Positions 7,736 through 31,891 of a DNA stretch of 46,955 bases are shown one piece after another. The translations under genes and the position numbers were made by a program. The DNA is from an uncultured Bacteroidia bacterium (GTDB lineage: Bacteria > Bacteroidota > Bacteroidia > Bacteroidales > Prolixibacteraceae), in the NCBI GenBank assembly GCA_903923905.1, contig CAIXZH010000114.1, positions 1 to 46,955 of the forward strand, read 5' to 3'. The notes under the pieces were generated by a model. The model ran no database searches, was not told the origin of the DNA, and saw only the letters and a list, made by a program, of their open reading frames with translations. The number at the start of each line of letters is the position of its first letter. The first letter of the stretch is position 1.

Positions 7736-8563
7736 TTACGGATGGAAGATTTCGATCACCTTTTTTACAGAACCATGAATTAACAACAATCTGCGGGCTT
7801 CATCATTTGAAATTTGGAGTTCTTCTACGATCATCCTGGTCCCCCGTTCAATCAGCTTTTTATTGGTAAGTTGCATATTTACCATTTTGTTCCCTTTTAC
7901 CCTTCCCAATTTAATCATAAGAGTCGTTGTGATCATATTGAGAATCATCTTTTGAGCAGTTCCAGCCTTTAGCCGGGTACTCCCGGTCACAAATTCTGGA
8001 CCAACAATTGCTTCGACGGGATATTCTGTGACTTGGGCAATTTCGCTAACCGGATTGCAGGTAATACATCCGGTGAGGATGCCATTAGACCGTGCATGTA
8101 TGATTCCGCCGATTACGTAGGGTGTTGTTCCTGAAGCAGCAATACCTATCACCGCATCGTTTTTATTGATATTAAAACCCTGAAGGGTAGCCCACGCTTT
8201 TTCAGGATTATCCTCGGCGGCTTCCACCGATTTACGCAGGGCGGTGTCTCCACCTGCAATTAGCCCAATTACCATATTATCGGGAACACCAAAGGTTGGA
8301 GGAACTTCCGATGCGTCCAAAACCCCAAGCCTGCCGCTTGTTCCGGCTCCGAGGTAGAAAACACGTCCCCCCTTTTTCATTCTTGCTTCAATTTGTTCAA
8401 CCAAATTCCTGATTTGTGGAATTGCCTCTTTGACAGCCAGATGCACTTTTGAGTCTTCTTCATTGATGTGAACAAGTAACTCTTCAACCGTCATTGCATC
8501 AAGATTGTCGAAATTTGATGGTGATTCTGTTACACTGATTTTGGTCCCGGATTTTGACATCAT
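7736..8563 (-). CDS. murQ: N-acetylmuramic acid 6-phosphate etherase
   Basis: Cytosolic lyase that splits MurNAc-6-phosphate into GlcNAc-6-phosphate and D-lactate, the step that feeds cell-wall sugar into amino-sugar metabolism. The SIS-fold signature YLGAGTSGRLGVLDASEVPP is intact. Glu86 (DASEVPP) and Glu117 (EAAEDNP) correspond to catalytic Glu83 and Glu114 of E. coli MurQ with a constant offset of 3. At 275 residues it is slightly shorter than the E. coli enzyme at the C terminus. It follows the sugar kinase gene with 7 bases between them, so the two form an operon in which the kinase makes the substrate for MurQ. Confidence 0.95.
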   Translation of the reverse strand: MMSKSGTKISVTESPSNFDNLDAMTVEELLVHINEEDSKVHLAVKEAIPQIRNLVEQIEARMKKGGRVFYLGAGTSGRLGVLDASEVPPTFGVPDNMVIGLIAGGDTALRKSVEAAEDNPEKAWATLQGFNINKNDAVIGIAASGTTPYVIGGIIHARSNGILTGCITCNPVSEIAQVTEYPVEAIVGPEFVTGSTRLKAGTAQKMILNMITTTLMIKLGRVKGNKMVNMQLTNKKLIERGTRMIVEELQISNDEARRLLLIHGSVKKVIEIFHP

Positions 8564-8570
8564 ACAATAA

Positions 8571-9425
8571 TTAAAAATTTTGACTTTTGATTTTCTTTTG
8601 ATGGTAGGCGATCAACCCGCTCATAGGGGCCTGTTCAATTTTTCCAGGAAGCAGGTTTTGTTCTTTAACTACTTTCGTGAGTTGTAGTTGAAAATGGAAA
8701 GCTATGCTTCCGGTAAAATAAATGGGAGTATAATGGACCTGGGCGTATTGCATCAGGTTACGCGTCACAAAATTCTGAAATCCTGCGATTACAATATTCT
8801 CTATTTCAGGGACTTTTATATACTTAGAGAGAAATTGGGTATATCCGGCAAGATACCTGCTTGGATAGGGCTGTTTATAGACATTTTCCATGATCTCAGC
8901 CGGTGAGGTCTGATAATTTTCAAAAAACTCACGAATCAGCCATTGGGGCAATTGGTTTTTTAAAATGTCGCTGATCAGTTTTTTCCCGAGAACTGCACCG
9001 CTGCCTTCATCCCCTAAAATAAATCCCAGGGGAGAAACGTGATCAATTATTTCAGAGCCATTGTAATAGCATGAATTTGAGCCTGTTCCTAAAATACAGG
9101 CGATGCCGGGATGGTCCTGACATAATGAATGGGCAGCAGCGAGAAGGTCGCTTCCAACAAAGAAATAATTAGCTTCAAAGACTTGTAATAAAGCTTCCTT
9201 TATGATTTCTTCCTTTTCGTGATTGATGCAGCCGGCACCGTAAAAATAAATGGCATCAAATTTTTTCTGACCTAAGGTAAATTCATGCTGTAATTGAAGC
9301 GCAATCTGCCTGGAATCCTGATAAAACGGGTTGATTCCTGAGGTGAAAATCGTTTCCGTAATTCCCTGATCACGGAGGATAACCCATTCGGCTTTGGTAC
9401 TGCCGCTGTCTGCAATAAGGATCAT
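8571..9425 (-). CDS. BadF-type N-acetylmuramate/N-acetylglucosamine kinase
   Basis: Cytosolic ATP-dependent sugar kinase of the BadF/BadG/NagK family (ASKHA fold). The phosphate-1 motif is ILIADSGSTKAEW, followed by YFYGAGC, the ATP-binding ILGTGSNSC and LGDEGSGAVLG, the conserved sugar-site block of this family. Length (284) is normal. MurNAc kinases MurK of Clostridium and Tannerella belong to the same family and phosphorylate MurNAc and GlcNAc at O6. Coupling to murQ downstream makes MurNAc the likely physiological substrate here, though specificity cannot be read from sequence. It is divergent from the big degradative gene set, with 212 bases between them. Confidence 0.85.
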   Translation of the reverse strand: MILIADSGSTKAEWVILRDQGITETIFTSGINPFYQDSRQIALQLQHEFTLGQKKFDAIYFYGAGCINHEKEEIIKEALLQVFEANYFFVGSDLLAAAHSLCQDHPGIACILGTGSNSCYYNGSEIIDHVSPLGFILGDEGSGAVLGKKLISDILKNQLPQWLIREFFENYQTSPAEIMENVYKQPYPSRYLAGYTQFLSKYIKVPEIENIVIAGFQNFVTRNLMQYAQVHYTPIYFTGSIAFHFQLQLTKVVKEQNLLPGKIEQAPMSGLIAYHQKKIKSQNF

Positions 9426-9610
9426 TATTTGTCGAAATTATTTTGTACTCAGCCTTAAAATTTCTATTTTTAACTCCCTTGTTCTGGATTCTTAAATTCC
9501 TGATAATAATGCATAACAAGAATCCAATATTGTTAAACCTTAAAGCTGATTACCCAACATTTTTTGGAAAAACATATTCTGCAAAGTTACTATTATTATA
9601 AAATTAATTC

Positions 9611-9618
9611 TAATTTTG
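9611..9618 (+). promoter_or_regulatory. Predicted -7 box for the plus-strand island operon
   Basis: TAATTTTG is a full match to TAnnTTTG, 19 bases before the ATG of the amidase gene at 9638. This implies a leader of about a dozen bases, short as often in this phylum. No TTTG lies at the expected -33 spacing. Confidence 0.4.
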
Positions 9619-9637
9619 GCCGCCCTTTAATAACTTA

Positions 9638-12622
9638 TTGATGAATAGATCTATTCGGTTATCTTTTGGTATAGTCCTGTTTTTGCTCTTTCTCTTACCA
9701 TTTTTCGGCACTTCTCACCCCTTGAAAAGGTCCAGGTTGAGTGCCAAAGCCGAAAGTCGCCTCCGTGAATTAAAGAATTTTTTACCGGAATGGCAGCATA
9801 TTGGCAGAATAGCCTTCGATTCACTTTCCATATTATCTGATCAAAACCCGATCAGGATCTATTTTACAACCCCGCTTTCTTATGTCCCTGTAAGGGAGTC
9901 AGAGGTAAATTCAATTGAGAAATTGGTTAGAAATACACTCGGACGAAAATTCCGAAAATATCAGATTGCACTGTATACCGATCATCATTTAGTACGGGAA
10001 TTGATTCCAAATCAATTAAGAACAAGTATTCCGGTTGATCAAAGCAGGATCTCAGGTAATCAACCCGGACGGATACCGGTTGTAAATCAGGTTGGAAAAG
10101 AGCAACCGAGTCTCGGACTTTTCAATAATAACATTGCTTTATGGGAGAGCCATGGGTGGTATTATGAATCAAAGCAGGATCGGTGGAAATGGCAGCGTGC
10201 CAGGTTATTCGGTACCATTGAAGATATGTCGCCCATGAGTTTTGTGTTGCCATATCTTGTTCCGATGCTGGAAAACAGTGGCGCAAATGTGTTTCTCCCA
10301 CGCGAACGTGACTGGCAATCAAATGAGGTGGTGGTCGATAATGACCGGTCAACCGCCGGATCTGAAATGATCTTACCTAACGGATTTTCACATCCTGAAT
10401 CTCAACCGGGATTTCTGTTTAAGGATTCACTTTTTACAGGTGAGAATCCGTTTCATATGGGTACTTCCCTCAGAATCAGTAATTTGAATAAAGATCAGGT
10501 TATTCAGTACCTTCCATCTTTTAGGGTGAAAGGGAGATATTCAGTGTCAGTCTGTTATCAATCTGATCCATCGGCAATATCGAACGTCATTTATACCGTT
10601 TATCACTCAGGCGGAAGGACTCAGTTTTTGGTTAATCAGAAAATAGGGGGAGGAACGTGGATCTATCTGGGAACATTTGACTTTCTCCCAGGTAAGAACC
10701 CTGACACGGGCATGGTTACCTTGGGTTGCGATGGAGAAGGGAATGGTACAATTTCGGTTGATGCCGTAAAATTTGGAGGTGGTATGGGAAATGTGGCACG
10801 TCGACCATCCCAGGGAGCTCTTTTTAACTATAAACTTAGCGGCAAGCCACGTTACCTGGAAGGTGCAAGATATTATCTCCAGAGTAGCGGTTTTCCAGAT
10901 ACGCTCACCTATGATCTGAATGGAGATAAGAATGATTATAATGATGATTATCAGTCCCGTGGAGAATGGGTTAATTACCTGATGGGAAAACCTAACGGAC
11001 CTGAAAAAAAGCGAAATACCACAGGCTTAAAGATTCCTGTTGATTTAGCTTTTGCTTTTCATACCGATGCAGGTATTGCCCCAAACGATTCAATCATTGG
11101 AACCCTTGGAATATATAGTACCAAAGCTGATAATGGCGCTTTCCCAAATGGGAATTCTCGCATGGCCAGCAGAGATATATCGGATATTATTCAAACACAG
11201 GTTGTTAATGATATCAGAAAACTCTACAGAGGGGATTGGACTAGACGTGGTCTCTGGGATAAGCAATATTCTGAGGCGTGGCGCCCCAATGTTCCAACGA
11301 TGCTGCTGGAACTTCTTTCACATCAGAATTTGTCAGATATGAGATTTGGCCTTGATCCGCGCTTCCGGTTTTCAGTGAGTAGGGCCATTTATAAAGGGAT
11401 GTTGAGATTTGAATCCTATCAGGAAAACCGTCAGTTTGTGGTTCAACCTCTTCCGATAGATTGCTTTGCAATCACCAAACTGAGTGCAAATTCTGTCAGA
11501 CTAACCTGGAGGGTAGTAATTGATCCTCTTGAACCTTCTGCAAAGCCTGATAAATTTAAGATTTACAGGCGTCTTGGCGACTCAGGTTTCGACAATGGTA
11601 TAGTAGTTGCAGATACCTCTGTTGTTCTTAAGCTTGATCAGATTAACAAAATATATAGCTTTAAAGTTACTGCAATCAATCAGGGAGGTGAGAGTTTCCC
11701 GGGCGAGACCCTTTCTGTTGGAATGAAGAGTAACAGTAAGGGCGATATTCTTGTTGTTAATGGGTTTTACCGGGTTTGTGCTCCTTCAACTTTTGATATT
11801 AACGGGATGGCTGGAGTCGCCTGGTGGAAAGATCAGGGTGTTGCCGACCGCCAGGATATTAGTTTTGTCGGGAATCAGTATGACTTCGATCGCAACTCAA
11901 AATGGCTGGATGACGATAGTCCGGGCTGGGGCGCAAGTTATGGGAACATGGAAGGTAAAGTGATTCCGGGAAATAGTTTTGACTTTTCCAAGGTCCATGG
12001 TGATGCAATTATGGCTGCCGGTTACTCATTTACTGCTGTCAGTAAGGATGCCTTTTGTCGGGCTGATTTTGATCTGTCACCCTACTTTGCAACTGATATT
12101 ATTCTGGGTAAAGAGCGTTCCACACCTGGACTAAAAGATTCTGCCAGAATCGATTTTAAAATATATACTTCTGAATTTATCGCCAAAATCTCCGATATAA
12201 CCAAAAGAAATGGCAGACTTTTCTTATCCGGCTCCTACATCGGATCTGAATTTGGAGAGAGAAATGATTCATTGGTGGCTGGTTTTGCCAAAGAGGTTCT
12301 TCATTTTACCTGGAGAACAGGACATGCCTCCAAAGGCGGAGGATTCTACGCAACCGATTATGCCAGGAAATGGCTTACTGGAAACTGGAATTTTAACGTG
12401 GAATATAATCCGGATATTTACAGCGTGGAAGCGCCAGATGGAATTGAACCTGCAGGAAAAAATGGTATAACTGCATTTCGCTATGGCGAAAATAATGTAA
12501 GTGCAGGTGTTTTATACAATGGAAATTACCGGATTGTCGCCATGGGAATACCCTTCGAAACAATTTTGGGGAGTGCTGAACAATACAATCTGATGGTTCA
12601 AATTATCCGGTTTTTTGAATAA
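9638..12622 (+). CDS. Exported N-acetylmuramoyl-L-alanine amidase with Golvesin-C-like insert and FN3 domain
   Basis: Predicted periplasmic or surface zinc amidase that strips stem peptides from MurNAc. A signal peptide covers residues 1-26. Amidase_3 zinc/catalytic elements are visible but split: His172 in ESHGWYYE and Glu223 in LPRERDW before, His475 in AFHTDAG and Glu558 in LLELLSHQN after, a segment of about 120 residues (roughly 255-380) that resembles the Golvesin C-terminal domain found in many 'xanthan lyase' annotations. A fibronectin type III-like domain follows (about 605-690), then a long beta-rich tail of unknown role. It opens the plus-strand gene set and would make the denuded glycan used by the GHL10 enzyme encoded downstream. 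Confidence 0.78.
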   Translation: MMNRSIRLSFGIVLFLLFLLPFFGTSHPLKRSRLSAKAESRLRELKNFLPEWQHIGRIAFDSLSILSDQNPIRIYFTTPLSYVPVRESEVNSIEKLVRNTLGRKFRKYQIALYTDHHLVRELIPNQLRTSIPVDQSRISGNQPGRIPVVNQVGKEQPSLGLFNNNIALWESHGWYYESKQDRWKWQRARLFGTIEDMSPMSFVLPYLVPMLENSGANVFLPRERDWQSNEVVVDNDRSTAGSEMILPNGFSHPESQPGFLFKDSLFTGENPFHMGTSLRISNLNKDQVIQYLPSFRVKGRYSVSVCYQSDPSAISNVIYTVYHSGGRTQFLVNQKIGGGTWIYLGTFDFLPGKNPDTGMVTLGCDGEGNGTISVDAVKFGGGMGNVARRPSQGALFNYKLSGKPRYLEGARYYLQSSGFPDTLTYDLNGDKNDYNDDYQSRGEWVNYLMGKPNGPEKKRNTTGLKIPVDLAFAFHTDAGIAPNDSIIGTLGIYSTKADNGAFPNGNSRMASRDISDIIQTQVVNDIRKLYRGDWTRRGLWDKQYSEAWRPNVPTMLLELLSHQNLSDMRFGLDPRFRFSVSRAIYKGMLRFESYQENRQFVVQPLPIDCFAITKLSANSVRLTWRVVIDPLEPSAKPDKFKIYRRLGDSGFDNGIVVADTSVVLKLDQINKIYSFKVTAINQGGESFPGETLSVGMKSNSKGDILVVNGFYRVCAPSTFDINGMAGVAWWKDQGVADRQDISFVGNQYDFDRNSKWLDDDSPGWGASYGNMEGKVIPGNSFDFSKVHGDAIMAAGYSFTAVSKDAFCRADFDLSPYFATDIILGKERSTPGLKDSARIDFKIYTSEFIAKISDITKRNGRLFLSGSYIGSEFGERNDSLVAGFAKEVLHFTWRTGHASKGGGFYATDYARKWLTGNWNFNVEYNPDIYSVEAPDGIEPAGKNGITAFRYGENNVSAGVLYNGNYRIVAMGIPFETILGSAEQYNLMVQIIRFFE

Positions 12623-12648: not shown

Positions 12649-14118
12649 ATGAATGAACTGATCACATGTGTGTTAGCTTTTGACAATGATACAGAGGTTG
12701 GGAAAATGGTCAAAACTTTTTGCAATTCTGGAGCGATCGCAAAGATTATTCTGGTGGGTGAAGCAGAATTGTCCGGAGAAGGATTGAATAATGCAGTCAT
12801 CATACGCGGGAATCTTGGATGTGCCAAAACTTTGTTTAAGTTGTCAGGATTTATTACTACATCATATACATTGTTATGTACCAAAGCTTTACCATTTGAT
12901 ATGGGGCAGAATGCGTTGCATCGAATGGTCCAGGTATGTACATGCAGCGGAGCCGGAATGGTCTATTCCGATTATTTGGAAGAGAAGGAGGGGGTCACAA
13001 AACTTCATCCCGTTATTGAGTATCAGGAAGGAAGCTTACGCGATGATTTTGATTTCGGGTCGCTGACACTCTTTCGATCTGAAGCTTTAATAGCCGCTTC
13101 GGAAGCTATAGATCAGCAATTTGAATTCGCCGGCTTATATGACCTGAGATTGAAAATTTCACAAAATTATAAACTGGTTCATATTCCTGAATTTCTTTAT
13201 TCCGAAATTGAAATGGATTCGCGCAGGTCAGGCGAAAAGATTTTCGATTATGTCGATCCTAGTAATCGTATTAAACAAACTGAAATGGAGAAAGCCTGCA
13301 CGGCTCATCTTAAAGCAATTGGCGGCTGGCTTCCTCCAAAATTCAGGGAAATCTCATTTTCTGATGGAAATTTCAAAACCGAAGCCTCTGTGATCATTCC
13401 TGTCCGGAACAGGGTTAAAACAATAGGTGACGCCATCAAATCGGTACTAAGTCAGGAAGCGGATTTTAAGTTTAATTTGATTATTGTTGATAATTATTCC
13501 ACAGATGGAACCACCGAATTGATCAGTACCTTTGCAGATACTGATAATCGGATTATTCATATTATTCCCCGGAGGAAGGAGCTCGGAATTGGAGGGTGCT
13601 GGAACGTAGCGATTAACAACCCGGCCTGCGGAAAATTTGCCATCCAGCTTGACAGCGATGATTTATACCTTGACAATACAGTAATCAGGCAGATTGTGGC
13701 CTCATTCTATGAACAACGCTGTGCGATGTTGGTGGGTTCTTATCAGATGGTTAATTTTAACCTGGAGAAAATTCCACCGGGGTTAATCGATCATAAAGAA
13801 TGGACACCTGAGAACGGAAGAAATAATGCATTGAGAATTAATGGATTGGGTGCTCCAAGGGCATTTTATACCCCGATTCTAAGGGAGATTCAGGTTCCAA
13901 ATGTGAGTTATGGTGAAGATTATGCACTCGGATTGTCAATAAGTCGTAATTATCTGATTGGAAGACTTTATAATCCGTTGTATCTTTGTCGCCGCTGGGA
14001 TGAAAATTCGGATTCTTCTCTTGACGTAGCCAGGATGAATACTCATAATTTTTATAAAGATAAAATTCGGACGCTGGAATTGTGGGCGCGTCAGTCGATG
14101 ATCCGTGAGGATCAGTAA
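12649..14118 (+). CDS. Cytosolic tandem GT-A (family 2-like) glycosyltransferase
   Basis: A 489-residue protein without signal peptide or membrane helix. The C-terminal half (about 245-480) is a clear GT2 domain: ASVIIPVRNR, then LIIVDNYSTDGT, the DxD-type LDSDDLY (334-340) and a late YGEDYALGLSIS. The N-terminal half (1-235) looks like a second, decayed GT-A fold, with LITCVLAFDND at the start, MVYSDYLE in the DxD position and FDFGSLTLFRSEAL further on. Donor and acceptor are unknown. Its place between a peptidoglycan amidase and a HIT-type nucleotidyl enzyme, and the lack of export signals, suggest a cytosolic sugar-transfer step tied to recycled wall sugars rather than ordinary cell-surface glycan synthesis. 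That is inference. Confidence 0.75.
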   Translation: MNELITCVLAFDNDTEVGKMVKTFCNSGAIAKIILVGEAELSGEGLNNAVIIRGNLGCAKTLFKLSGFITTSYTLLCTKALPFDMGQNALHRMVQVCTCSGAGMVYSDYLEEKEGVTKLHPVIEYQEGSLRDDFDFGSLTLFRSEALIAASEAIDQQFEFAGLYDLRLKISQNYKLVHIPEFLYSEIEMDSRRSGEKIFDYVDPSNRIKQTEMEKACTAHLKAIGGWLPPKFREISFSDGNFKTEASVIIPVRNRVKTIGDAIKSVLSQEADFKFNLIIVDNYSTDGTTELISTFADTDNRIIHIIPRRKELGIGGCWNVAINNPACGKFAIQLDSDDLYLDNTVIRQIVASFYEQRCAMLVGSYQMVNFNLEKIPPGLIDHKEWTPENGRNNALRINGLGAPRAFYTPILREIQVPNVSYGEDYALGLSISRNYLIGRLYNPLYLCRRWDENSDSSLDVARMNTHNFYKDKIRTLELWARQSMIREDQ

Positions 14119-14166: not shown

Positions 14167-15099
14167 ATGGATTTTTCAGAAAAAGCAAGAGCATTAGTCC
14201 AGGAACAAAAGGCCGATTGGGACCTGGTTGGCCGGAACTATGAAGGTTTACGCAATGTAAAAGTAAAAACCTTGGATTTTATTGATTTTAATATCGATGT
14301 TCAGTATAATCCTGAACGAATTGTTTCTTCAATGGCTAAGGTAGATGACCAATCGATAGAGGAACGTTCATGTTTTTTATGCAGGAAAAATCTTCCGTCT
14401 TCACAGCGCTGGATTCCATATGGCATTGATTATGTGATATTAGTGAACCCTTTTCCAATATTTCCGGAGCATCTGACCATTGCAAATATCAATCATACCA
14501 ACCAGCGGATTTTTGAAAATTTTGAAACGATGCTCGACCTGGCCTCTCATTTAAGTAAATTTGTCATTTATTATAATGGACCCAAATGTGGGGCTTCAGC
14601 TCCAGATCATCTTCATTTTCAGGCAGGTATTAAGGGATTTATTCCAATCGAGAATGATTTTTCCAATGAAATTTGTTGCCGCGAAGTTCGCCACATTGAC
14701 GGAATTAAAATATCGCATTGGCCTGAATATCAGAGAGGTATAATTACTTTGACGGGAAACAACAAATCCAATCTGATCGGTTGTTTCAACACCATTTATC
14801 ATCAGTTACAACTGGCCAAGCATGATCAGCCGGAGCCGATGCTTAATATTATTGCATCTTTCGAGCGCAAAACATGGACTGTCCATATTTTTCCCAGAAC
14901 TTCACACCGCCCTCGTCAATACTATGAAACAGGCGAAAGTCAAATTGTATTGAGTCCTGCTTCTGTAGATATGGGTGGATTGCTGGTCACTCCCCGCGAA
15001 GAGGACTTTCTGAAAATAACGGAAGAAGATATTATTGATATTTTTGAACAGGTTTGTTTTGACACCCAATCAGTTCTGACTTTGATCAACAAACTTTAA
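14167..15099 (+). CDS. DUF4922 HIT-superfamily nucleotidyltransferase/phosphorylase-like protein
   Basis: Cytosolic 310-residue protein of the DUF4922 type, related in fold to GalT, Ap4A phosphorylase and GDP-hexose phosphorylase. It has the histidine-triad-like active site GASAPDHLHFQ (142-152) giving H-x-H-x-Q, the strand NPFPIFPEHLTI (94-105) that precedes it in GalT-like enzymes, and a Cys pair CFLC (69-72) that could be half of a metal site. Enzymes of this group move a nucleoside monophosphate between phosphate or sugar phosphate and a covalent histidine. Next to a glycosyltransferase and sugar kinase, a role in making or breaking an NDP-sugar from wall-derived sugar phosphate is plausible. 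No reaction is established to my knowledge. Confidence 0.8.
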   Translation: MDFSEKARALVQEQKADWDLVGRNYEGLRNVKVKTLDFIDFNIDVQYNPERIVSSMAKVDDQSIEERSCFLCRKNLPSSQRWIPYGIDYVILVNPFPIFPEHLTIANINHTNQRIFENFETMLDLASHLSKFVIYYNGPKCGASAPDHLHFQAGIKGFIPIENDFSNEICCREVRHIDGIKISHWPEYQRGIITLTGNNKSNLIGCFNTIYHQLQLAKHDQPEPMLNIIASFERKTWTVHIFPRTSHRPRQYYETGESQIVLSPASVDMGGLLVTPREEDFLKITEEDIIDIFEQVCFDTQSVLTLINKL

Positions 15100-15130: not shown

Positions 15131-16465
15131 ATGGAAATACCTGTAATCAAAGTTGGGATAATGGCTGAACAGGAAATTTCCTTTACATTTCATGGAAATT
15201 ATCTCATAGAGCATCTGGAAGCTATTATTTCAGGAACATTTAAGGCGGGCAGGTTCGGGACTGAAATTTACATTGATTCAGGAATTCAAAAATGGTTCTT
15301 GCCGGGTACTTTGAATCTGATTCCGATTGATCCAAATACCGGGTATTTCACCCTTCACGCTGTTACAATTGGCATTAATTTCCATTGGGAGCGAAAGGAG
15401 GACCAGGTTTTTAAAGGAAATCTTTGTTTTTTTCCTGAAGGCGACAAAATTCGGGCAATTAATATAGTCAGTATTGAAGATTATTTGCACAGCGTGATCT
15501 CTTCCGAGATGAGTGCAACCTCTTCAATTGAGTTTCTAAAAGCTCATGCGGTCATTTCCCGAAGCTGGCTGCTGGCACAAATCCGGAAAAATAAACGTCT
15601 CCAAACAGATCCTCAAAAATATAAGACCACCTGTCAGACGGAGGATGAATTAGTCAGATGGTACGACAGGGAAGACCACGACCATTTCGATGTATGCGCT
15701 GATGATCATTGCCAGCGATATCAGGGAATGACCCGCGCAACATCCACATTGATTGAATCAGCAGTTCAGGAAACGAACGGCGAGGTACTCACTTATCTTG
15801 GCTTAATCTGTGATGCCCGTTTTTCGAAATGTTGTGGCGGAGTAACCGAACTCTTTGAAAATGTATGGGAGCCTGTGAATCACCCTTATTTACAAAAGGT
15901 TTTTGATAATCGATTGCAGCCTGCAGTATTTAGCGAGGAGCTTACACAGGAACAGGCTGCAAGGCAATGGATAATGAATAAACCAGATGCTTTTTGCAAC
16001 TCTTCCGATAAAAATATTTTGATACAGGTCCTGAACGATTATGATCAGGAAACCAATGATTTTTTTCGCTGGCAAGTGATTTATACACAGTTAGAGTTGA
16101 GCAATCTGGTGAGGACCCGGACCGGAATAGATTTTGGAAAGATTACTGATCTGATCCCGGTTGAAAGAGGGGTATCTGGCCGGCTTATTAAATTAAAAAT
16201 TGTCGGTACTTTACACACGATGACCATTGGTAAGGAGTTGGAAATCCGAACGACATTATCTGAATCCCACCTTTTAAGTTCTGCTTTTATCTCTGAAAAA
16301 CAAGTAATTGATGGAAATTTGAATTTCGTTCTTTTTGGAGCAGGATGGGGCCACGGCGTGGGTTTATGCCAGATTGGTGCGGCAGTGATGGGAGATAAAG
16401 GGTATACCTATTCAGAAATATTATCCCATTATTTCCCAGGGGCAGGATTGGAGAAAATTTATTGA
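15131..16465 (+). CDS. SpoIID/LytB-domain protein without a signal peptide
   Basis: SpoIID-type proteins are lytic transglycosylases that cut denuded glycan and leave 1,6-anhydroMurNAc ends. The catalytic region is present: VISSEMSATSS with Glu126, followed by FLKAHAVISRSW, the usual L-K-A-Q-A-V-x-x-R-T-Y/W helix, and the C-terminal GWGHGVGLCQIGA. A Cys/His-rich stretch (HDHFDVCADDHCQRYQG, about 185-201) resembles the metal-bearing region of SpoIID. Unlike classical members it has no signal peptide: the codon just before ATG 15131 is TAA, so no upstream extension exists, and the N terminus (MEIPVIKVGIM) is not hydrophobic. It should act in the cytoplasm unless exported by an unknown route. 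It lies 31 bases after the DUF4922 gene. Confidence 0.85.
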   Translation: MEIPVIKVGIMAEQEISFTFHGNYLIEHLEAIISGTFKAGRFGTEIYIDSGIQKWFLPGTLNLIPIDPNTGYFTLHAVTIGINFHWERKEDQVFKGNLCFFPEGDKIRAINIVSIEDYLHSVISSEMSATSSIEFLKAHAVISRSWLLAQIRKNKRLQTDPQKYKTTCQTEDELVRWYDREDHDHFDVCADDHCQRYQGMTRATSTLIESAVQETNGEVLTYLGLICDARFSKCCGGVTELFENVWEPVNHPYLQKVFDNRLQPAVFSEELTQEQAARQWIMNKPDAFCNSSDKNILIQVLNDYDQETNDFFRWQVIYTQLELSNLVRTRTGIDFGKITDLIPVERGVSGRLIKLKIVGTLHTMTIGKELEIRTTLSESHLLSSAFISEKQVIDGNLNFVLFGAGWGHGVGLCQIGAAVMGDKGYTYSEILSHYFPGAGLEKIY

Positions 16466-23718: not shown

Positions 23719-26700
23719 ATGCAGAAAATTAAGCTGTTATATTTATTTGTTCTGTCCTTTCTGGTTTTTCAGGCAAAGTCTCAATCACAATTTAGCCTGG
23801 ATAAATATTTAAATCATCCCTGGGTTGATTCGATCTTTAATTCCCTGTCGCCGGATGAGAGGATCGCTCAGCTGATTTGGATTGACGCCAATAGTGGCGA
23901 GGACCTGCAGAAACAATTTCAGGTGGGTGAATTGGTTCGTAAATATAATTTTGGAGGGTTGATTTTCTTTGCCGGGAAAGCGGTCAAACAGGCAGAACTG
24001 GTCAATTATTATCAGTCGATCTCCAGAATCCCCCTTATCGTAGCCATGGATGCCGAATGGGGACCGGGGATGAGACTGGATGACGTTGAGCCGTTTCCCT
24101 ATAATCTGACAATGGGTGCTGTTTCAGATGAGAAATTGATCACAAATTGTGCTATGTCAATGGCACAACAGTTGAAAATGGTTGGTGTCCAAATTAGTCT
24201 TGGGCCGGTTGCTGACATCAATACAGAACCACAGAATCCGATAATTGGGATCCGTTCCTTTGGGGAATCACGGGACCTGGTAACTCAAAAATGTGTGGCT
24301 TATATGAAGGGTCTGCAGGAGAATGGAATCCTGGCAATCGCCAAACACTATCCGGGACACGGCAATACCCGGATTGATTCACACGTTGCCTTGCCGCTTT
24401 TGTCCGTTTCGCGTCAGCAACTGGACAGCATGGAGCTTTATCCGTTCAGAAGTCTCGCTGCCGAAGGTATCGGAGGAATTATGACTGCCCATTTGAGGGT
24501 TCCCGCGCTGGATGCTAAAAACGAATCTCCATCCAGCTTATCCGAAAGTGCCGTTGAAGGGGTGATCCGAAAGGAATGGAATTTTCAGGGGCTGGTTATC
24601 ACAGATGCTATGAATATGGGTGGGGTCACCGGATTTGGAGAGCCCGGAAAGAACGAGATTCTTGCCCTGAAGGCAGGGAACGATGTGATCGAATTTCCCG
24701 TTGACGGAGCACTCACACTTAAAGCAGTAAAAGAGGCAATATTGGTTAATAAGCTTACCTGGAATGATATAAATTATAAGTGTCGCAGGGTATTGGCAGC
24801 CAAATATCTAACCGGACTTAATCACCGCAGACCATTGGCAGTGGCAAACCTGGTGGAAAATCTGAATTCTTCATCGGTGCAATTTGCACAGCGGCAACTC
24901 ATGGAATCGGCACTTACCCTGCTTGAAAACAGAAATCAATTGATCCCGATACAGGGATTGGACACTCTTCGGATTGCATCACTCTCTGTCGGTTCTTCGG
25001 CCATTACCCCTTTTCAGAAGATGCTTGGCAACTATACCCGGATTGATCATTTTAACCTTCCGGATAGTTTTACCGAAACTGAAGCCAATGAAATGATCAA
25101 AAAATTAGGCGGCTACAATCTGGTAATAACAGGGGTCCATTCTCTTTATGAATGCAGGGACCGTCGATCATTTACCGGGAATAAAGTAATTTTGAATAAT
25201 TCCATTCAGCCTTACGGTGTTTCGGAAAATCTCCGGAACCTCCTTTCCCGGATCTCAATGACCAGAAATTCAATTGTTGTTTTGTTTGCAAACCCTTATG
25301 CGATCAATGAGATCAAAGAGTTTAGCCATCCGGACGGATTGGTGGTTGCTTATCAGAATACAACATTGGCCCAGGAATTGGCGGCTCAATTACTGTTTGG
25401 AGGAGTTTGTGCCAGAGGTAAACTTCCGGTTTCAATAGGATCACGTTATCCGCTGAATACAGGATTAACGACCGGACCACCTGTCCGGCTAAAATATACG
25501 CAACCTGAAGAATTCGGATTGAATTCCTTTCAGTTTAATGAATCGGTTGATTCAATTGTGAATAATGCATTGAAAAATAAGGCTTTCCCAGGTTGTAATG
25601 TTTTAATTGCAAAGGACGGTAAGGTGATCTTTCGGAAGGCCTATGGGTTTCATACTTTCGAAGAGCGGGTTCCTGCCCAACTGGATGATATTTATGATCT
25701 GGCTTCAGTCACTAAAGTTTCAGGAGCCCTGCCTGCATTTCTGAAACTATATGAAGAGGGGAAATACCAGCTGGATCTACCGTTCTCAACCTATTGGCCC
25801 GATTGGCGGAAGGGGTTTTTGCACCCTTCAAATAAAAGTGATCTCACCGCCCGGGAATTGTTGGCACACCAGGCGGGATTAATTCCGGATGTGCTTTTCT
25901 GGAAGGAGACCGTAAATGACAAAGGCTTGATGAATAAATGGTACAGATCAGAAGAAGATGAGCGGTTTAATCTGGAAGTGGCTCCGGGATTATATCTGGA
26001 TAAAGGGTTTAATAAATATGTATACAAAGCGATCCGGAAATCACCGCTCAATTCACGCGGAAAATATGTCTACAGCGATCTGTTCTTTGTGATGGCACCG
26101 GCTGTGATTACCCGTCTGTCAGGCATGAATTATACCGATTATCTTGATCAGAACTTTTACTGGCCGTTGGGTGCCACTACGGTCACATACAGGCCATCCC
26201 GGAAATTCTCAGACGACCAAATTGTTCCAACCGAACATGATAATTATTATCGTAAACGATTAATCCATGGCAGTGTACATGACGAATCCTCTGCTATTCT
26301 GGGTGGAATTTCGGGAAACGCAGGATTATTTGCCTCTGCAAATGATTTGGCAAAGATTGTTCAGATGTATGTTCAGTTTGGAACGTATGGAGGCAGGAAA
26401 TATTTGAATCATTCCACGATGGAAGAATTTACCAGGATTCAGTTTCCTCAGAATAAAAACAGGAGAGCGCTGGGTTTTGACAAACCATTGATTGACAATC
26501 AGAAGTTTGACAGGGAAAATTCCTATCCTTGCCCGGCTGTTTCACCGCAGAGTTTCGGCCACTCAGGCTTTACAGGCACCTTTTTCTGGGCCGATCCATC
26601 CAATGGATTGATTTATATATTCTTATCTAACCGGGTATACCCAACTCGCGAAAACAATAAAATCAGCGAAATGAATGTAAGAACAGATATTCTGCAATTG

Positions 26701-26733
26701 GTATATGAGCAATTAAATAGAATAAAACACTGA
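23719..26733 (+). CDS. nagZ: NagZ-type GH3 beta-N-acetylglucosaminidase fused to a serine beta-lactamase/AmiE-like domain
   Basis: Exported two-enzyme fusion of 1,004 residues with signal peptide 1-22. The GH3 domain (about 35-370) has the NagZ Asp-His loop AKHYPGHGNTRIDSH (208-222) and the nucleophile in ITDAMNMGGV. A GH3 C-terminal-like domain follows to about 590. The rest is a class C beta-lactamase-like serine hydrolase with SVTK (663-666), YSD (785-787) and HSGFTG near the end. In Bacillus subtilis NagZ and the beta-lactamase-fold amidase AmiE are encoded side by side and act in turn to remove GlcNAc and then peptide. This fusion could do both, releasing GlcNAc, MurNAc and peptide in the periplasm. 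The amidase activity is inference. Confidence 0.9.
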   Translation: MQKIKLLYLFVLSFLVFQAKSQSQFSLDKYLNHPWVDSIFNSLSPDERIAQLIWIDANSGEDLQKQFQVGELVRKYNFGGLIFFAGKAVKQAELVNYYQSISRIPLIVAMDAEWGPGMRLDDVEPFPYNLTMGAVSDEKLITNCAMSMAQQLKMVGVQISLGPVADINTEPQNPIIGIRSFGESRDLVTQKCVAYMKGLQENGILAIAKHYPGHGNTRIDSHVALPLLSVSRQQLDSMELYPFRSLAAEGIGGIMTAHLRVPALDAKNESPSSLSESAVEGVIRKEWNFQGLVITDAMNMGGVTGFGEPGKNEILALKAGNDVIEFPVDGALTLKAVKEAILVNKLTWNDINYKCRRVLAAKYLTGLNHRRPLAVANLVENLNSSSVQFAQRQLMESALTLLENRNQLIPIQGLDTLRIASLSVGSSAITPFQKMLGNYTRIDHFNLPDSFTETEANEMIKKLGGYNLVITGVHSLYECRDRRSFTGNKVILNNSIQPYGVSENLRNLLSRISMTRNSIVVLFANPYAINEIKEFSHPDGLVVAYQNTTLAQELAAQLLFGGVCARGKLPVSIGSRYPLNTGLTTGPPVRLKYTQPEEFGLNSFQFNESVDSIVNNALKNKAFPGCNVLIAKDGKVIFRKAYGFHTFEERVPAQLDDIYDLASVTKVSGALPAFLKLYEEGKYQLDLPFSTYWPDWRKGFLHPSNKSDLTARELLAHQAGLIPDVLFWKETVNDKGLMNKWYRSEEDERFNLEVAPGLYLDKGFNKYVYKAIRKSPLNSRGKYVYSDLFFVMAPAVITRLSGMNYTDYLDQNFYWPLGATTVTYRPSRKFSDDQIVPTEHDNYYRKRLIHGSVHDESSAILGGISGNAGLFASANDLAKIVQMYVQFGTYGGRKYLNHSTMEEFTRIQFPQNKNRRALGFDKPLIDNQKFDRENSYPCPAVSPQSFGHSGFTGTFFWADPSNGLIYIFLSNRVYPTRENNKISEMNVRTDILQLVYEQLNRIKH

Positions 26734-26883: not shown

Positions 26884-27474
26884 TTAAAAAGCAAACCCAA
26901 ATCCTATATTAGCGATAGGCCCTCCACCCTTGATAGGTGAATTAAAACTTTCATTCTGAGTAACTCCATTTTTTACAGCTGTAACTTCAAAAACCGGATT
27001 ATTCATGGCTAAACTCCAGCCAAGCTCCCATCTGAAGAAAAATAATTTACCATATTTCCCGCCAACTTTTAGATTTAAAGAATTAATGCCGATGTTAGCT
27101 GCCCCTTTTTGGGTTGTACCGTCAGACGTGAAAGTTACATTTTTTGTAACATCAAGACCCATTCTGCTGTATCCAAAACCACCATAAAAGCCTCGTCCTT
27201 CCTTAAAAAAATAGTAATCTGCAAAAAAACCAAAATTGGAATATGTCACTGTAGCAGAATTCGAACTTAAAGGAAGATAGCTAAAATCTATATCAGCAGC
27301 TAGTCTTTTACTCATCAGCGGAGTAACATATTCAAGATTTAATCCGACTACCTGGGGATAACCAATCTTTAAACCAATACTAACCGGGCGTTCCTGACCT
27401 GATACATTCGAATTCATAGCAAGAATTAACAGCAAAATGCCAATTAGGCTAAACTTCAAAAATAGATTTCTCAT
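26884..27474 (-). CDS. Outer-membrane beta-barrel protein
   Basis: A 196-residue OmpW/OMP_b-brl-like protein with a signal peptide (MRNLFLKFSLIGILLLILA...SGQ). The mature part alternates hydrophobic and polar residues with many Gly/aromatic pairs (GFFADYYFF, GGFGYSRMG) and ends IANIGFGFAF, with the terminal Phe typical of barrels recognised by BamA. The specific role is unknown. It interrupts the otherwise plus-strand peptidoglycan gene set and is probably a separate transcription unit. Repeated motifs lie directly upstream of its start. Confidence 0.75.
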   Translation of the reverse strand: MRNLFLKFSLIGILLLILAMNSNVSGQERPVSIGLKIGYPQVVGLNLEYVTPLMSKRLAADIDFSYLPLSSNSATVTYSNFGFFADYYFFKEGRGFYGGFGYSRMGLDVTKNVTFTSDGTTQKGAANIGINSLNLKVGGKYGKLFFFRWELGWSLAMNNPVFEVTAVKNGVTQNESFNSPIKGGGPIANIGFGFAF

Positions 27475-27493
27475 GAGTATAAATTTAAGATTT

Positions 27494-27865: not shown

Positions 27866-27895
27866 TTTGCAATTCATTTGAAATGTCTACTTTTA
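27866..27895 (+). promoter_or_regulatory. Predicted promoter for the peptide-processing genes
   Basis: TTTG (27866-27869), an 18-base spacer and TACTTTTA (27888-27895, one mismatch to TAnnTTTG) give the best two-box match seen in the window. It would start transcription about 30 bases before the ATG at 27932. Confidence 0.5.
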
Positions 27896-27931
27896 GATTT
27901 TCAACCCGAATATTTGTTAAAAAAGTGATAA

Positions 27932-29365
27932 ATGAAAGCTATCCAATCCATTTTACTCTTCACTATATTTATTTGCATTATAGGTTGTTATCAGCCTCCT
28001 GACGCACATAGGTCAATTAAAGATATTGAAAAGGCTTTCCAAAATGGCTATTTTAGCCAGACAATTAAATGGTCCGATTCCATTTTAAGATGCAGCAATA
28101 CTGATTCTTTAACCATTTTCCGGCTGAATTCGATATTAGACATGGCCAGACGGATTAAAGCCGACTTTACTATGACTGCTGAGGAAACGGACACCCTTTT
28201 AAAGAATGAAGCAGTAGAGTTTACGCCATCTGAAAGAGAGCTATGGGAGCGAAATAACTGGCTTGAATACCGGATGATCGATGGAGAAAAGCGCTATTTC
28301 AAAAGAGCTGTTTCCAATCTGATTTTAATTCTCAAAAGCAAACAGCCGGCCCGGGAAGGTGAGCAGATTTTGGATTCGCAATCGCGGTTTTGCCTGGAAC
28401 GTTCCCGTAAGGTAATCATGGCGGCCGGATCTTCCGGGAAACCGGTCATTCCAGTTAAACTCAAAATTAATTATCAGTTAACCGTCAAAGCGGATGCCGT
28501 TCCTGCAGGAGAAATTGTCCGCTGCTGGCTTCCATGGCCACAAGAGAATCATTCGCGTCAGACCAATGTTAAACTCCTTAAAATGGTTCCTGAGTCTTAC
28601 CGGATTGCACCTGATTCGGTTGAGCAGCGATCGGTATATTGCGAACAAAAGGCGTTTAAAGGGAAACCTGTAGTGTTCAATCTTCAGTTTGAGTATGTAT
28701 CAATGGCACAGTATTTTGAACTGAATAAAATGAAAGCTCTTCCAGCCGTTACATCCAAAGCCATATCTGAAAGGTATACAGCCGAGCAATATCCGCAGAT
28801 CGTATTTAGCGCTGAGATCAGGAGATTGTCAGACAGTATAGTCGCAGGCACTTCCAATCAGGCAGAAAAGGTTCGGAAAATTTATTACTGGATCAATGAC
28901 CATATTATATGGACAGGTGCTTTGGAGTATTCGATCATACCCTTTATTCCCGGCTATGTATTGGCCAACAGACGTGGTGATTGCGGTATGCAGACCATGC
29001 TCTTCATGGCGATGGCACGATACCAGCACATCCCTGTAAAATGGCAAAGCGGATGGATGATGCATCCCCATGAGGTAAATCTACACGATTGGTGTGAAGT
29101 GTTTTACGATGGAATCGGGTGGATACCACTCGACATGTCCTTTAATCTTCAGCAGTCAGATAACCTTAGCGAGAAAGAGTTTTATATCAGTGGAATCGAT
29201 TCATACCGGTTGATAATCAATGACGGAATCGGAAGCAGACTGGTCCCGGGTAAGAAATTCCCAAGAAGTGAACCTTTTGATTTTCAGCGTGGAGAAGTTG
29301 AATGGCGGGGAGGCAACCTCTATTTTGATCAATGGGATTATCATATGAACGTAGAGTATTTGTAA
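27932..29365 (+). CDS. Transglutaminase-like lipoprotein
   Basis: Predicted lipoprotein (lipobox CIIGC, Cys19) with a C-terminal transglutaminase-like cysteine-protease fold. The triad is visible: Cys351 in RRGDCGMQTM, His385 in NLHDWCEV and Asp401 in WIPLDMS. The first 170 residues are helical and unassigned; about 175-300 is a beta-rich domain (KLKINYQLTV). Bacterial proteins of this fold are often peptidases or amidases rather than cross-linkers. With NlpC/P60 and dipeptide epimerase genes next in line, trimming of wall stem peptides is a reasonable guess. It begins a three-gene run 27932-31891. Confidence 0.82.
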   Translation: MKAIQSILLFTIFICIIGCYQPPDAHRSIKDIEKAFQNGYFSQTIKWSDSILRCSNTDSLTIFRLNSILDMARRIKADFTMTAEETDTLLKNEAVEFTPSERELWERNNWLEYRMIDGEKRYFKRAVSNLILILKSKQPAREGEQILDSQSRFCLERSRKVIMAAGSSGKPVIPVKLKINYQLTVKADAVPAGEIVRCWLPWPQENHSRQTNVKLLKMVPESYRIAPDSVEQRSVYCEQKAFKGKPVVFNLQFEYVSMAQYFELNKMKALPAVTSKAISERYTAEQYPQIVFSAEIRRLSDSIVAGTSNQAEKVRKIYYWINDHIIWTGALEYSIIPFIPGYVLANRRGDCGMQTMLFMAMARYQHIPVKWQSGWMMHPHEVNLHDWCEVFYDGIGWIPLDMSFNLQQSDNLSEKEFYISGIDSYRLIINDGIGSRLVPGKKFPRSEPFDFQRGEVEWRGGNLYFDQWDYHMNVEYL

Positions 29366-29412
29366 TTGGAAGTAAAACTGATCTGCATTCCCATACCCCG
29401 GCTGAAAAATAC

Positions 29413-29420
29413 TATTTTTG
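29413..29420 (+). promoter_or_regulatory. Possible -7 box for the NlpC/P60 gene
   Basis: TATTTTTG is a full match to TAnnTTTG, 37 bases before ATG 29458. No -33 element at normal spacing. It also supports choosing ATG 29458 over the frame's TTG at 29332. Confidence 0.35.
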
Positions 29421-29457
29421 TATAAATCGTAGATGTATATCCGTAAACGAATTTCTT

Positions 29458-30624
29458 ATGAAATCTATTTTTTCCCTTTCCGTTTCTATGCTCACCCTGC
29501 TGCTGAGCTGTCAATCAAATCCTGTGGCACCCTTGCAGACTGAAATTGACAGTATTTCCAAACATTGGGCACCCGACAAAAGGACAGGAATCTGTAACAT
29601 AGCCTTAAGCAATGGGAGAGGAGCTGAGCTGATTTTAAAAGGAGAAACCATGTTTGCCGGCGCCAGGACCAAGGTTTTACAATTGTTAAGCAGCAAAGGT
29701 TTTTCGGTGATTGACAGCGTGACCATTCTTCCGGATACACTTCATCTTGAAAAAAACTGGGGCCTGATTACTTTAAGTGTTGCCAATATGCGAAGTAAAC
29801 CAGCCCATTCGTCTGAGATGGTTTCACAGACGATTATGGGTACTCCGGTCCGTATTTTGAAGGATGGGGATGGATGGGTGTTGATTCAGACTCCTGACCA
29901 GTATATTGGCTGGACCAATAAATCGGCAGTCCAACTGATGAGCCGTTCTGAAATTCTACAATGGCGGAAGGCGGAACGGCTGATCTTTGAAGGAAATGAG
30001 GGTATTATCTTTGGTGATCGTCAAAGAACTACGATAATGAGTGACCTGGTTGCCGGAGCCATCCTCGTTAAAACATCTGAAGGCCTGGATTATGTCGCGG
30101 TTGGTTTACCCGATGGACGTTCCGGTTATGTTTCAAAACAGAACTGGTTCAGCTTTAAACGGTGGAAAGATACGGTTTCTTTGAATGCAAACCGTATGAT
30201 TGTCAGCGGAAAACGACTGATGGGCTTTCCGTACCTTTGGGGAGGTACATCCTCGAAAGGGATGGATTGTAGCGGGTTTGTGAAGACTGTATGCTTTTTA
30301 AATGGTGTCGTTCTGGAGCGTGATGCATCGCAACAATTTTGTCACGGAAAAGAAGTTGATCTTACTGCAGGATGGGAAAAACTGCAAAAGGGTGATTTGC
30401 TCTTTTTCGGGTCCAAAGAGCCTTTCCGGGTGACACATGTAGGCATGTATATCGGTGACAGTGAATTAATTCATGAATCGGGAAGTGTGCATATAAATAG
30501 TCTCGATCGCACAAAGGCCAATTACAATGATGAGCTAAAGGAAAATCTGGTTGGAGCGAGAAGGATCATCGGATTTTCTTCTGAGCAGGGATTATGGCCC
30601 ATTCGGAATCACCCTTGGTATTAA
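29458..30624 (+). CDS. NlpC/P60 lipoprotein, gamma-D-Glu-diamino acid endopeptidase (YkfC-like)
   Basis: Probable periplasmic lipoprotein that cuts the D-gamma-Glu-diaminopimelate bond of stem peptides. Start ATG 29458 gives a lipoprotein signal ending LTLLLSC (Cys18); the TTG at 29332 would overlap the previous gene and hide it. About residues 95-160 are an SH3b domain (LSVANMRSKPAHSSEM), a second SH3-like region follows, and the NlpC/P60 domain has Cys271 (GMDCSGF), His327 (VTHVGMYIG) and His339 (LIHESG). The SH3b-NlpC layout matches YkfC, an enzyme that needs a free N-terminal L-Ala. YkfC and the epimerase YkfB are neighbours in Bacillus, and here too the next gene is the epimerase. Confidence 0.92.
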   Translation: MKSIFSLSVSMLTLLLSCQSNPVAPLQTEIDSISKHWAPDKRTGICNIALSNGRGAELILKGETMFAGARTKVLQLLSSKGFSVIDSVTILPDTLHLEKNWGLITLSVANMRSKPAHSSEMVSQTIMGTPVRILKDGDGWVLIQTPDQYIGWTNKSAVQLMSRSEILQWRKAERLIFEGNEGIIFGDRQRTTIMSDLVAGAILVKTSEGLDYVAVGLPDGRSGYVSKQNWFSFKRWKDTVSLNANRMIVSGKRLMGFPYLWGGTSSKGMDCSGFVKTVCFLNGVVLERDASQQFCHGKEVDLTAGWEKLQKGDLLFFGSKEPFRVTHVGMYIGDSELIHESGSVHINSLDRTKANYNDELKENLVGARRIIGFSSEQGLWPIRNHPWY

Positions 30625-30682
30625 TTTTTGATCAATTTTAAAACTAACTTTCAGTATCTCTCGATCTAAAGCATTAGCCTAC

Positions 30683-30695
30683 AGACTAAAAGTCT
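30683..30695. repeat. Small hairpin in a CTAAAAG-rich leader
   Basis: AGACT-AAA-AGTCT is a perfect 5-bp hairpin, followed by a run of similar words (CCTAAAAGCCTAAACC). It lies in the 121-base gap between the NlpC/P60 and epimerase genes. Such ACTAAAAGTC-like runs recur in Bacteroidota spacers; no function is clear. Confidence 0.3.
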
Positions 30696-30745
30696 CCAAC
30701 CTAAAAGCCTAAACCCCTGAAACAATTAAATCAAATTTTAATCCT

Positions 30746-31891
30746 ATGAGTAACAGACGCAATTTTTTAAAATATAGCGGTTTAGCTGCCGGTTCACTAC
30801 TCTTGCCCGCTCCAATGCCGGCAGCAAAAGGTTGTCCTTCTGTCTTTAAAAAATCAGGGAAATCAACCATGATGAAATTGAGGTTCCGTCCTTACGAATT
30901 GCAGCTCAGACATGTCTTCACGATTGCCAATAATTCAAGAACCACTACTCCCGTCATGCTTACTGAGGTAGAGTTTGACGGAATAATTGGATACGGCGAA
31001 GCCAGCATGCCCCCTTATCTTGGCGAAAGCCATAAAACGGCCACTGAGTTCCTATCTAAAGTTGATCTCTCCTCATTTAACGATCCTTTTGAGCTTGAAG
31101 ATATTATACAATACATCGATAGCCTAGCTGCCGGAAATTATGCGGCCAAAGCCTCGGTGGATATTGCCTTGCACGATTTAATCGGGAAAATATTGGGACA
31201 ACCCTGGCATAAACTCTGGGGATTAAATCCTTCGAAAACGCCGAATACCAGTTTTACCATTGGAATGGATACTCCGGATGTGGTCAGGGAGAAAGTTCAT
31301 GAGGCAGATATTTATAAAATTTTAAAAGTCAAACTGGGACGTGACAACGATAGGGAGATGATCCAAACGATCCGCTCAGTAACAGATAAACCAATCTGCG
31401 TGGATGTCAATCAGGGTTGGAAAGACAAGCATATGGCCCTCGATATGATCCATTGGCTGGCTACTCAGGGGGTGGTCTTCGTGGAACAACCCATGAGCAG
31501 ACTGGCGGTCGATGATATGGCCTGGCTGACGGAAAACAGCCCGTTACCTACCATGGCAGACGAGGCCGTGCAGACTGTTTACGATGTGCTTTCTGTTCAT
31601 AAAGTATATTCGGGAATCAATATCAAATTAATGAAATGCGGAGGCATGCGCAACGCCCATAAAATGGCCGATATGGCTAAGATTTTGGGAATGAAGGTAA
31701 TGATTGGTTGTATGACCGAGACTTCCTGTGCCGTCTCTGCTGCTGCTCAGCTGTCTCCTATAGCCGATTGGGCAGATCTTGATGGCAATCTATTGATTAG
31801 CAATGATATTTACGATGGAGTCAACGTGGTCGATGGGAAAATGACACTTTCACAACTCCCGGGAATAGGGATTCGTATGAAATCCAAATAA
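30746..31891 (+). CDS. L-Ala-D/L-Glu dipeptide epimerase with twin-arginine signal
   Basis: Enolase-superfamily epimerase that converts L-Ala-D-Glu from peptidoglycan to L-Ala-L-Glu. Catalytic lysines are in KILKVKLG (Lys194 and Lys196, K-x-K) and KLMKCGG (Lys294/Lys297). Metal ligands are Asp220 (VDVNQGW), Glu247 (VEQPM) and Asp272 (ADEAV). The N terminus is a twin-arginine signal: SNRRNFLKYSG then a hydrophobic core ending near PAAKG, giving about 40 residues more than cytosolic homologues. It should therefore be exported folded, with its Mg2+, to the periplasm. Upstream is the endopeptidase that would produce its substrate. A dipeptide importer is not in the window. Confidence 0.92.
   Translation: MSNRRNFLKYSGLAAGSLLLPAPMPAAKGCPSVFKKSGKSTMMKLRFRPYELQLRHVFTIANNSRTTTPVMLTEVEFDGIIGYGEASMPPYLGESHKTATEFLSKVDLSSFNDPFELEDIIQYIDSLAAGNYAAKASVDIALHDLIGKILGQPWHKLWGLNPSKTPNTSFTIGMDTPDVVREKVHEADIYKILKVKLGRDNDREMIQTIRSVTDKPICVDVNQGWKDKHMALDMIHWLATQGVVFVEQPMSRLAVDDMAWLTENSPLPTMADEAVQTVYDVLSVHKVYSGINIKLMKCGGMRNAHKMADMAKILGMKVMIGCMTETSCAVSAAAQLSPIADWADLDGNLLISNDIYDGVNVVDGKMTLSQLPGIGIRMKSK

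Follow-up and report, generated by a model that had tools for sequence, protein, structure and literature searches.

Where would a bacterium take peptidoglycan apart for salvage, outside the cytoplasm or within it? The question is raised by a 46,955-nucleotide contig of an uncultured Bacteroidia bacterium of the Prolixibacteraceae (GenBank CAIXZH010000114.1, assembly GCA_903923905.1), referred to here in its whole length as the window. The contig (C114) belongs to a draft genome (G000) of 5.4 Mb that is 97.8% complete, and an earlier note, made from the sequence alone, had described positions 7736-31891, from murQ to a dipeptide epimerase, as an island of 14 genes for wall disassembly and recycling with most steps in the periplasm. 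The coordinates and gene order stand, the count being 15 open reading frames (ORFs), and the enzymes with export signals support a periplasmic share of the work; the claim does not extend to a glycosyltransferase (GT), a DUF4922 protein and a SpoIID-type enzyme, all without leaders, nor to murK, murQ and whatever AmpG imports, which belong to the cytosol. The reading that we consider probable is that of a peptidoglycan salvage island with two branches, which extends the ampG-murTKQ operon of Bacteroidota and in which periplasmic disassembly would be followed by import through AmpG and an undescribed cytosolic step.

Nine of the 15 ORFs belong to families with a link to the salvage of cell wall or amino sugars (murQ, murK, amidase, SpoIID, AmpG, GHL10, NagZ, NlpC/P60 and the epimerase), and five have such a link only through their position or broad family membership (GT, DUF4922, a GH9-CE4 fusion, a NagX-like protein and a transglutaminase-like protein), which largely upholds the earlier statement that 13 of 14 genes could be linked to wall processing or lay within the run. 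The remaining ORF, a small exported protein on the minus strand (26884-27474), has no family match in Pfam or NCBIfam searches and is probably outside the salvage pathway. From the amidase to NagZ the plus-strand genes are separated by 26, 48, 31, 134, 78, 36, 2 and 22 bases, exactly the range of 2-134 previously given, and murK and murQ lie on the minus strand, divergent from the other island genes.

The most interesting part of the island is the trio of GT (12649-14118), DUF4922 (14167-15099) and SpoIID/LytB-type enzyme (15131-16465), all on the plus strand. Signals in the window were judged from hydropathy and by eye, and across relatives by a leader test requiring a 12-residue mean hydropathy of at least 1.8 inside the first 30 residues; the three proteins look cytosolic because this test found a signal-like leader in 0 of 43 GT, 1 of 56 DUF4922 and 0 of 30 SpoIID ORFs. 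The spore SpoIID carries a membrane or export signal. Membership of the SpoIID family is clear (TIGR02669, 176.8 bits against a cut-off of 83.3), and Glu126, which we take to be the catalytic glutamate, is invariant together with Cys189, His193 and Cys194 in 30 of 30 sequences. The GT, previously called tandem, is a two-part protein in which Pfam recognises one complete, C-terminal GT2 domain, the second copy being weak (N-terminal half, hhalign probability 7%, P 0.0014). DUF4922 scores 205.6 bits against a Pfam gathering threshold of 23.6, and its HLHFQ motif is invariant across 20 aligned sequences; it has distant similarity to Ap4A phosphorylase (8.3e-5, weak) and to a GalT model (3.3e-5), and structure prediction gave a low-confidence model (mean pLDDT 36.9, 10 sequences). 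In two papers on plants, GDP-sugar phosphorylases are assigned to a DUF4922 superfamily (PMC11047344, PMC9871823), and a role in nucleotide-sugar chemistry would be the natural guess for the window protein.

That the three proteins belong together is suggested by their fusions. DUF4922 is joined to SpoIID in G205 and GT to DUF4922 in G332, G256 and G336; all three are fused in G323, where the gene is interrupted by a contig end, and in G222 and G308 DUF4922 and SpoIID share one open frame, as judged from coordinates and frame rather than read out. Among 149 genomes of the same order, and with kinship ignored, any SpoIID was found in 36 of 36 genomes with DUF4922 and in 50 of 113 others (p 9e-11), and a long form of SpoIID in 36 of 36 against 1 of 113 (p 8e-34), the long form being a match of at least 327 bases, a limit picked after inspection of the data. 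G000 was included in these two-by-two tests and excluded from that for GH9 below, and G226 was represented by the longer of its two matches. DUF4922 also reaches beyond Bacteroidota: three control genomes gave a match, and two of these lie outside the phylum.

Conservation of the surrounding genes was assessed in two samples: 20 loci retrieved from the 36 same-order genomes with a DUF4922 match (own genome included), and, outside the class, 27 loci from 31 genomes of the phylum with such a match, of which 29 were retrieved (all but G136 and the window's own) and two, G027 and G160, were dropped for weak partial DUF4922 matches. The retrieved stretches are 4-40 kb long and some reach contig ends, so that absence of a gene from them is no proof. 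In the same-order loci GT occurs 17 times, AmpG 16, SpoIID 15, NamZ and murK 11 each, murQ and the amidase 7 each, GHL10 4, the NagX-like gene 3, and NagZ, NlpC/P60, the epimerase, the transglutaminase-like gene and GH9-CE4 once each; in the out-of-class loci the counts are GT 21, SpoIID 9, AmpG 6, NagZ 3, NamZ 2, one each for NagX-like, GHL10, NlpC/P60 and epimerase, and 0 for the remaining genes. By these counts, the complete window set is rare and its core widespread. The closest named records are metagenome-assembled genomes labelled Bacteroidia (L036: Prolixibacteraceae), which supply nine loci with 69-88% identity in DUF4922; five of the nine (L032-L036) keep the window gene order throughout their covered part. 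Sugar and peptide arms stand together in two loci: G235 (murQ, murK, amidase, GT, DUF4922, SpoIID, AmpG, NamZ, transglutaminase-like, NlpC/P60 and epimerase) and the out-of-class G014 (GHL10, NlpC/P60, epimerase, NagX-like, AmpG, GT, DUF4922, NagZ and NamZ). The neighbourhood comparison proposed in the earlier note thus finds conserved clustering in related genomes, and the recurrence of this gene order in other Bacteroidota speaks against a grouping by chance.

Four relatives, G350-G353 (loci L037-L040; completeness unstated), show how the island comes apart. AmpG, SpoIID and GH9-CE4 were not found anywhere in these genomes, whereas all five other relatives have them, and GT was not found in the four loci, a view at the locus with no genome-wide GT search. 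DUF4922 is directly followed by GHL10 and NagZ in all four; L037 and L039 end within NagZ, and in L038 and L040 NlpC and the epimerase come next. The gene murK is present in four and murQ in three of the loci, L038 ending within murK, and all four genomes encode AnmK and NamZ. The retention of DUF4922-GHL10-NagZ in them marks a separable periplasmic arm.

On the cytosolic side, murQ (7736-8563, minus strand) encodes a MurNAc-6-phosphate etherase that passes its family cut-off (TIGR00274, 309.5 bits against 302). The adjoining murK-type kinase of BadF/ASKHA fold (8571-9425, minus strand) finds its nearest solved structures among BadF-type kinases of Bacteroidota and carries Ser-Pro-Leu at 131-133, as does MurK of Tannerella forsythia, with Ser at the second specificity position, which is Thr94 in T. 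forsythia; the patch has been tied to MurNAc specificity (PMC10465942), and of the 21 ORFs annotated as murK kinases across the loci 15 carry it. AnmK is encoded elsewhere in the window's genome. Beyond murQ lies the gene for OvoA, an ovothiol-type 5-histidylcysteine sulfoxide synthase and methyltransferase (4682-6796, minus strand; TIGR04344, 3.5e-209), which adjoins murQ in L033 and L040 too. The AmpG-family permease (19150-21033, plus strand; TIGR00901, 1.2e-50, 172.4 bits, under the 350-bit cut-off) has 627 residues, including an insert of about 200 (about 165-365; window 19640-20240) that, from the usual topology of the major facilitator superfamily, would lie on the periplasmic side. Sixteen of the 29 AmpG ORFs in the loci, those with at least 597 residues, share the insert, and the remainder have 425-541 residues.

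The enzymes of the periplasmic branch are predicted to be exported. Hydrophobic leaders on the amidase, GH9-CE4, GHL10 and NagZ, lipobox-like IIGC and LLSC motifs on the two lipoproteins and RRNFLK on the epimerase agree with the signals that the earlier note had listed; across relatives the leader test was positive in 12 of 12 NagZ, 7 of 7 GH9-CE4, 11 of 13 GHL10 and 9 of 13 amidase ORFs, over-long or cut starts explaining at least some of the amidase ORFs without one, and an RR-type motif stands on five of five epimerase ORFs. A non-cytoplasmic location of the NagZ fusion and the epimerase, together with that of NlpC/P60, is what these signals predict. We read the protein at 9638-12622 (plus strand) as a secreted Amidase_3-like amidase with an inserted golvesin domain and with fn3: Pfam reports golvesin and fn3, with Amidase_3 weak (18 bits against a cut-off of 27), and His172, Glu195, His475 and Glu558, presumably the Amidase_3 zinc ligands, are conserved in all 13 sequences that span them, a 14th being partial. 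The predicted structure of its core is of low confidence (mean pLDDT 35.2, five sequences). GHL10 (21070-22581, plus strand) is a secreted glycan cleaver, a relative of DigH and Cwp19 by family search. The NagZ protein (23719-26733, plus strand) is a secreted GH3 enzyme fused to a serine hydrolase of PBP4B/beta-lactamase type; its GH3 half, nearest among solved structures to Bacillus subtilis YbbD/NagZ, has KH-x-PGHG and DSH, which we take to be the NagZ motifs, and reaches 143.7 bits with NCBIfam PRK05337, under the cut-off of 207. The best match of the hydrolase half is PBP4B; in Escherichia coli, yfeW is located with murQP.

The peptide arm, likewise assigned by family search and on the plus strand, comprises a lipoprotein with a transglutaminase-like domain and Cys-His-Asp motifs (27932-29365), a YkfC-type NlpC/P60 lipoprotein with SH3b (29458-30624), whose most likely start replaces the 29332 of the earlier reading and which matches solved Bacteroides-type dipeptidyl-peptidase VI chains, and a dipeptide epimerase-like enolase superfamily protein with a Tat-type leader (30746-31891), nearest to solved chain 3iji (6e-150). 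In NCBIfam the last scores higher as DgcA (N-acetyl-D-Glu racemase, 206.5 bits) than as L-Ala-D/L-Glu epimerase (144.7), both under cut-off.

GH9-CE4 (16600-19071, plus strand) is a secreted fusion of GH9 with a CE4 polysaccharide deacetylase, assigned from Pfam and from conserved residues whose roles we assume from family knowledge: GH9 Asp166, Asp169 and Glu566 and CE4 His671 and His675 are kept in nine of nine sequences, and CE4 Asp620 in seven (one gap, one Ala). GH9 is mostly a cellulase family, and it is possible, if somewhat doubtful, that the fusion digests food resembling chitin or cellulose rather than peptidoglycan and is in the island only incidentally. The fusion is scarce (8 of 149 same-order genomes, some with part only, and not found in G350-G353), and in G216 (L176 3799-13058) split GH9 and CE4 genes lie together with SIS, GH20, ROK and two NagX-family genes, an amino-sugar locus that may be a clue to function. 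Against a dietary role, the fusion in G306 (L177) comes after genes for NamZ and a sodium symporter, a lone CE4 comes after the amidase in G269 (L182), and five of the seven other genomes with GH9-CE4 have DUF4922 (p 0.008, kinship ignored).

Within the salvage reading, the fusion could instead take part in a deacetylate-cut-reacetylate shunt of CE4, GH9 and the NagX-like protein, a possible arrangement. The NagX/HGSNAT-family transmembrane protein (22584-23696, plus strand; MurT-family by literature) had been labelled DUF5009, a label that Pfam does not return, with no family reported up to E 1; the match is to NCBIfam NagX (2.8e-44, 151.7 bits, under the 480-bit equivalog cut-off), and a homologue in L176 (48% identity) passes Pfam HGSNAT_cat and reaches 22.2 of 25 bits for DUF5009. 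Its Asn25, His39 and Asp49 align with N286, H297 and D307 of human HGSNAT, the catalytic His-Asp pair being kept. NagX has been proposed to acetylate periplasmic glucosamine and described as distantly related to TfMurT, a MurNAc transporter (PMC9007349); MurT-like copies beside murK (G290, G306 and G330) carry the His-Asp pair too, and the pair therefore cannot separate transporter from acetyltransferase. An archaeal chitin route in which deacetylation precedes exo-glucosaminidase cleavage, with a GH9 exo-glucosaminidase cited (PMC6566704), may share the order of deacetylating and then cutting, although families and substrate differ and the step here is hypothetical. Against the shunt stand the rarity of GH9-CE4, the multi-copy nature of the NagX family (nine matches in G000, which makes it weak as a marker) and the absence of an adjoining NagX-like gene from GH9-CE4 in G306. 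G350 and G352, where the best match reaches 37-39% identity, lack an orthologue of the NagX-like protein; G351 and G353 have it elsewhere at 60% (L183 9231-10370, L184 9049-10188), near genes that by eye appear to be for efflux, and its loss does not, then, strictly track that of AmpG.

Families and leaders define the periplasmic branch, from which we infer the order of its steps, as we do the import branch and the substrate specificities. The amidase would remove stem peptides in the periplasm, GHL10 would then cleave the denuded glycan and the NagZ fusion liberate GlcNAc, with GH9-CE4 as a second route for amino sugar removal; NlpC/P60 and the Tat-type epimerase would take stem peptides to the L-Ala-Glu dipeptide. 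AmpG would import glycan pieces for processing by GT, DUF4922 and SpoIID in the cytosol. There SpoIID would cleave the oligomers as a muramidase or a lytic enzyme, with a nucleotide sugar being handled around that step by DUF4922 and GT, and MurK and MurQ, with AnmK from elsewhere, would lead the sugars to GlcNAc-6-phosphate. A more specific form of this proposal is offered tentatively and seems to us rather doubtful: in Bacteroidota, a cytosolic muramidase or lytic enzyme of SpoIID type would act as one unit with a DUF4922 protein of GalT/GDP-sugar-phosphorylase type and the two-part GT, taking glycan oligomers imported by AmpG into a nucleotide sugar or around one, joined in this lineage by the periplasmic shunt.

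Several observations weigh against the two-branch reading. Firstly, of the 27 out-of-class DUF4922 loci no more than 9 hold SpoIID, and 6 AmpG, within the stretch. Secondly, DUF4922 persists in relatives that lack SpoIID, AmpG and, at the locus, GT, and so needs a role without them. Thirdly, AnmK was detected in just 5 of 30 DUF4922 genomes of good quality but in all four relatives without SpoIID and AmpG; AnmK does not, then, track SpoIID, and a link between the two was sought and not found. Finally, Amidase_3 falls under the Pfam cut-off in the window and in four of five homologues, L136 alone passing with 28.5 bits.

It is also conceivable, though we think it the less credible account, that the island eats the walls of other bacteria instead of recycling its own: T. 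forsythia scavenges with a related operon (PMC7670621, PMC5388701) and murK-murQ point to catabolism, but no SusC/SusD or TonB-dependent receptor is among the island family matches, and the families are equally compatible with turnover. That GT, DUF4922 and SpoIID serve another glycan, such as a surface polysaccharide or glycoprotein, and merely neighbour salvage genes is unlikely, for although out-of-class loci often keep GT without AmpG and have murK or murQ within the stretch in 0 of 27 cases, the DUF4922-SpoIID fusions, the near-exclusive pairing of long SpoIID with DUF4922 and AmpG in 16 of 20 same-order loci argue against it. If the two-branch salvage reading is true, many Bacteroidota divide wall salvage into exported disassembly and a cytosolic lytic-enzyme branch, unlike E. 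coli; DUF4922 gains a candidate pathway, and the question of whether MurT is a transporter or an acetyltransferase becomes testable.

In the open-access literature, few subscription papers being covered, no published account was found that describes the island as a whole or gives GH9-CE4 a step in the salvage of cell walls. Known systems share parts of it. The extracellular mur operon of B. subtilis (murQ-murR-murP-amiE-nagZ-namZ-amlB) salvages through extracellular NagZ and amidase; secreted NagZ, amidase, serine hydrolase and murQ are common to both, whereas the window has a kinase in place of import by the phosphotransferase system, AmpG, GHL10 and a NagZ fused to the hydrolase. GHL10, which aligns with E. 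coli DigH along 374 residues at 36% identity and matches Clostridioides difficile Cwp19 at 1.1e-100, is of the same family as DigH, described as specific for denuded glycans (PMC12288456), and Cwp19, a lytic transglycosylase (PMC6016235), the window gene being located within a salvage island. Human HGSNAT and NagX have a family match and the His-Asp pair in common with the window protein, whose score stays under the NagX equivalog cut-off.

The closest likeness is to the ampG-murTKQ operon of T. forsythia (Tanf_08345-08385), a single transcript reported as xanthan lyase-gtf-gtf-lytB-ampG-ybbC-murT-murK-murQ (PMC5388701), and in its light the earlier note goes too far in suggesting that the full set could form a scheme of its own, as this operon supplies the backbone. 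A golvesin-type 'xanthan lyase', gtf, LytB/SpoIID, AmpG, MurK and MurQ are shared, as probably is the MurT-family protein, TfMurT being drawn here from the literature only; the second 'gtf' is equated with DUF4922 from position alone. The 'xanthan lyase' label probably stems from the golvesin insert, and the window suggests that this protein is an amidase. NamZ/YbbC, part of the T. forsythia operon, is not among the island family matches and lies on another contig of the same genome (G000:C116). In T. forsythia the transcript ends in murQ and murT adjoins murK, whereas in the window murK-murQ are divergent and the NagX-family gene stands elsewhere in the order. G290, G306 and G330 hold a T. 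forsythia-like set with NamZ, the order in G290 being GT-DUF4922-SpoIID-AmpG-NamZ-NagX/MurT-like-murK-murQ-amidase. With GHL10, GH9-CE4, the NagZ-serine hydrolase fusion and the peptide arm as its additions, the window is, on this comparison of gene content and order, an extended and rearranged form of the known ampG-murTKQ operon.

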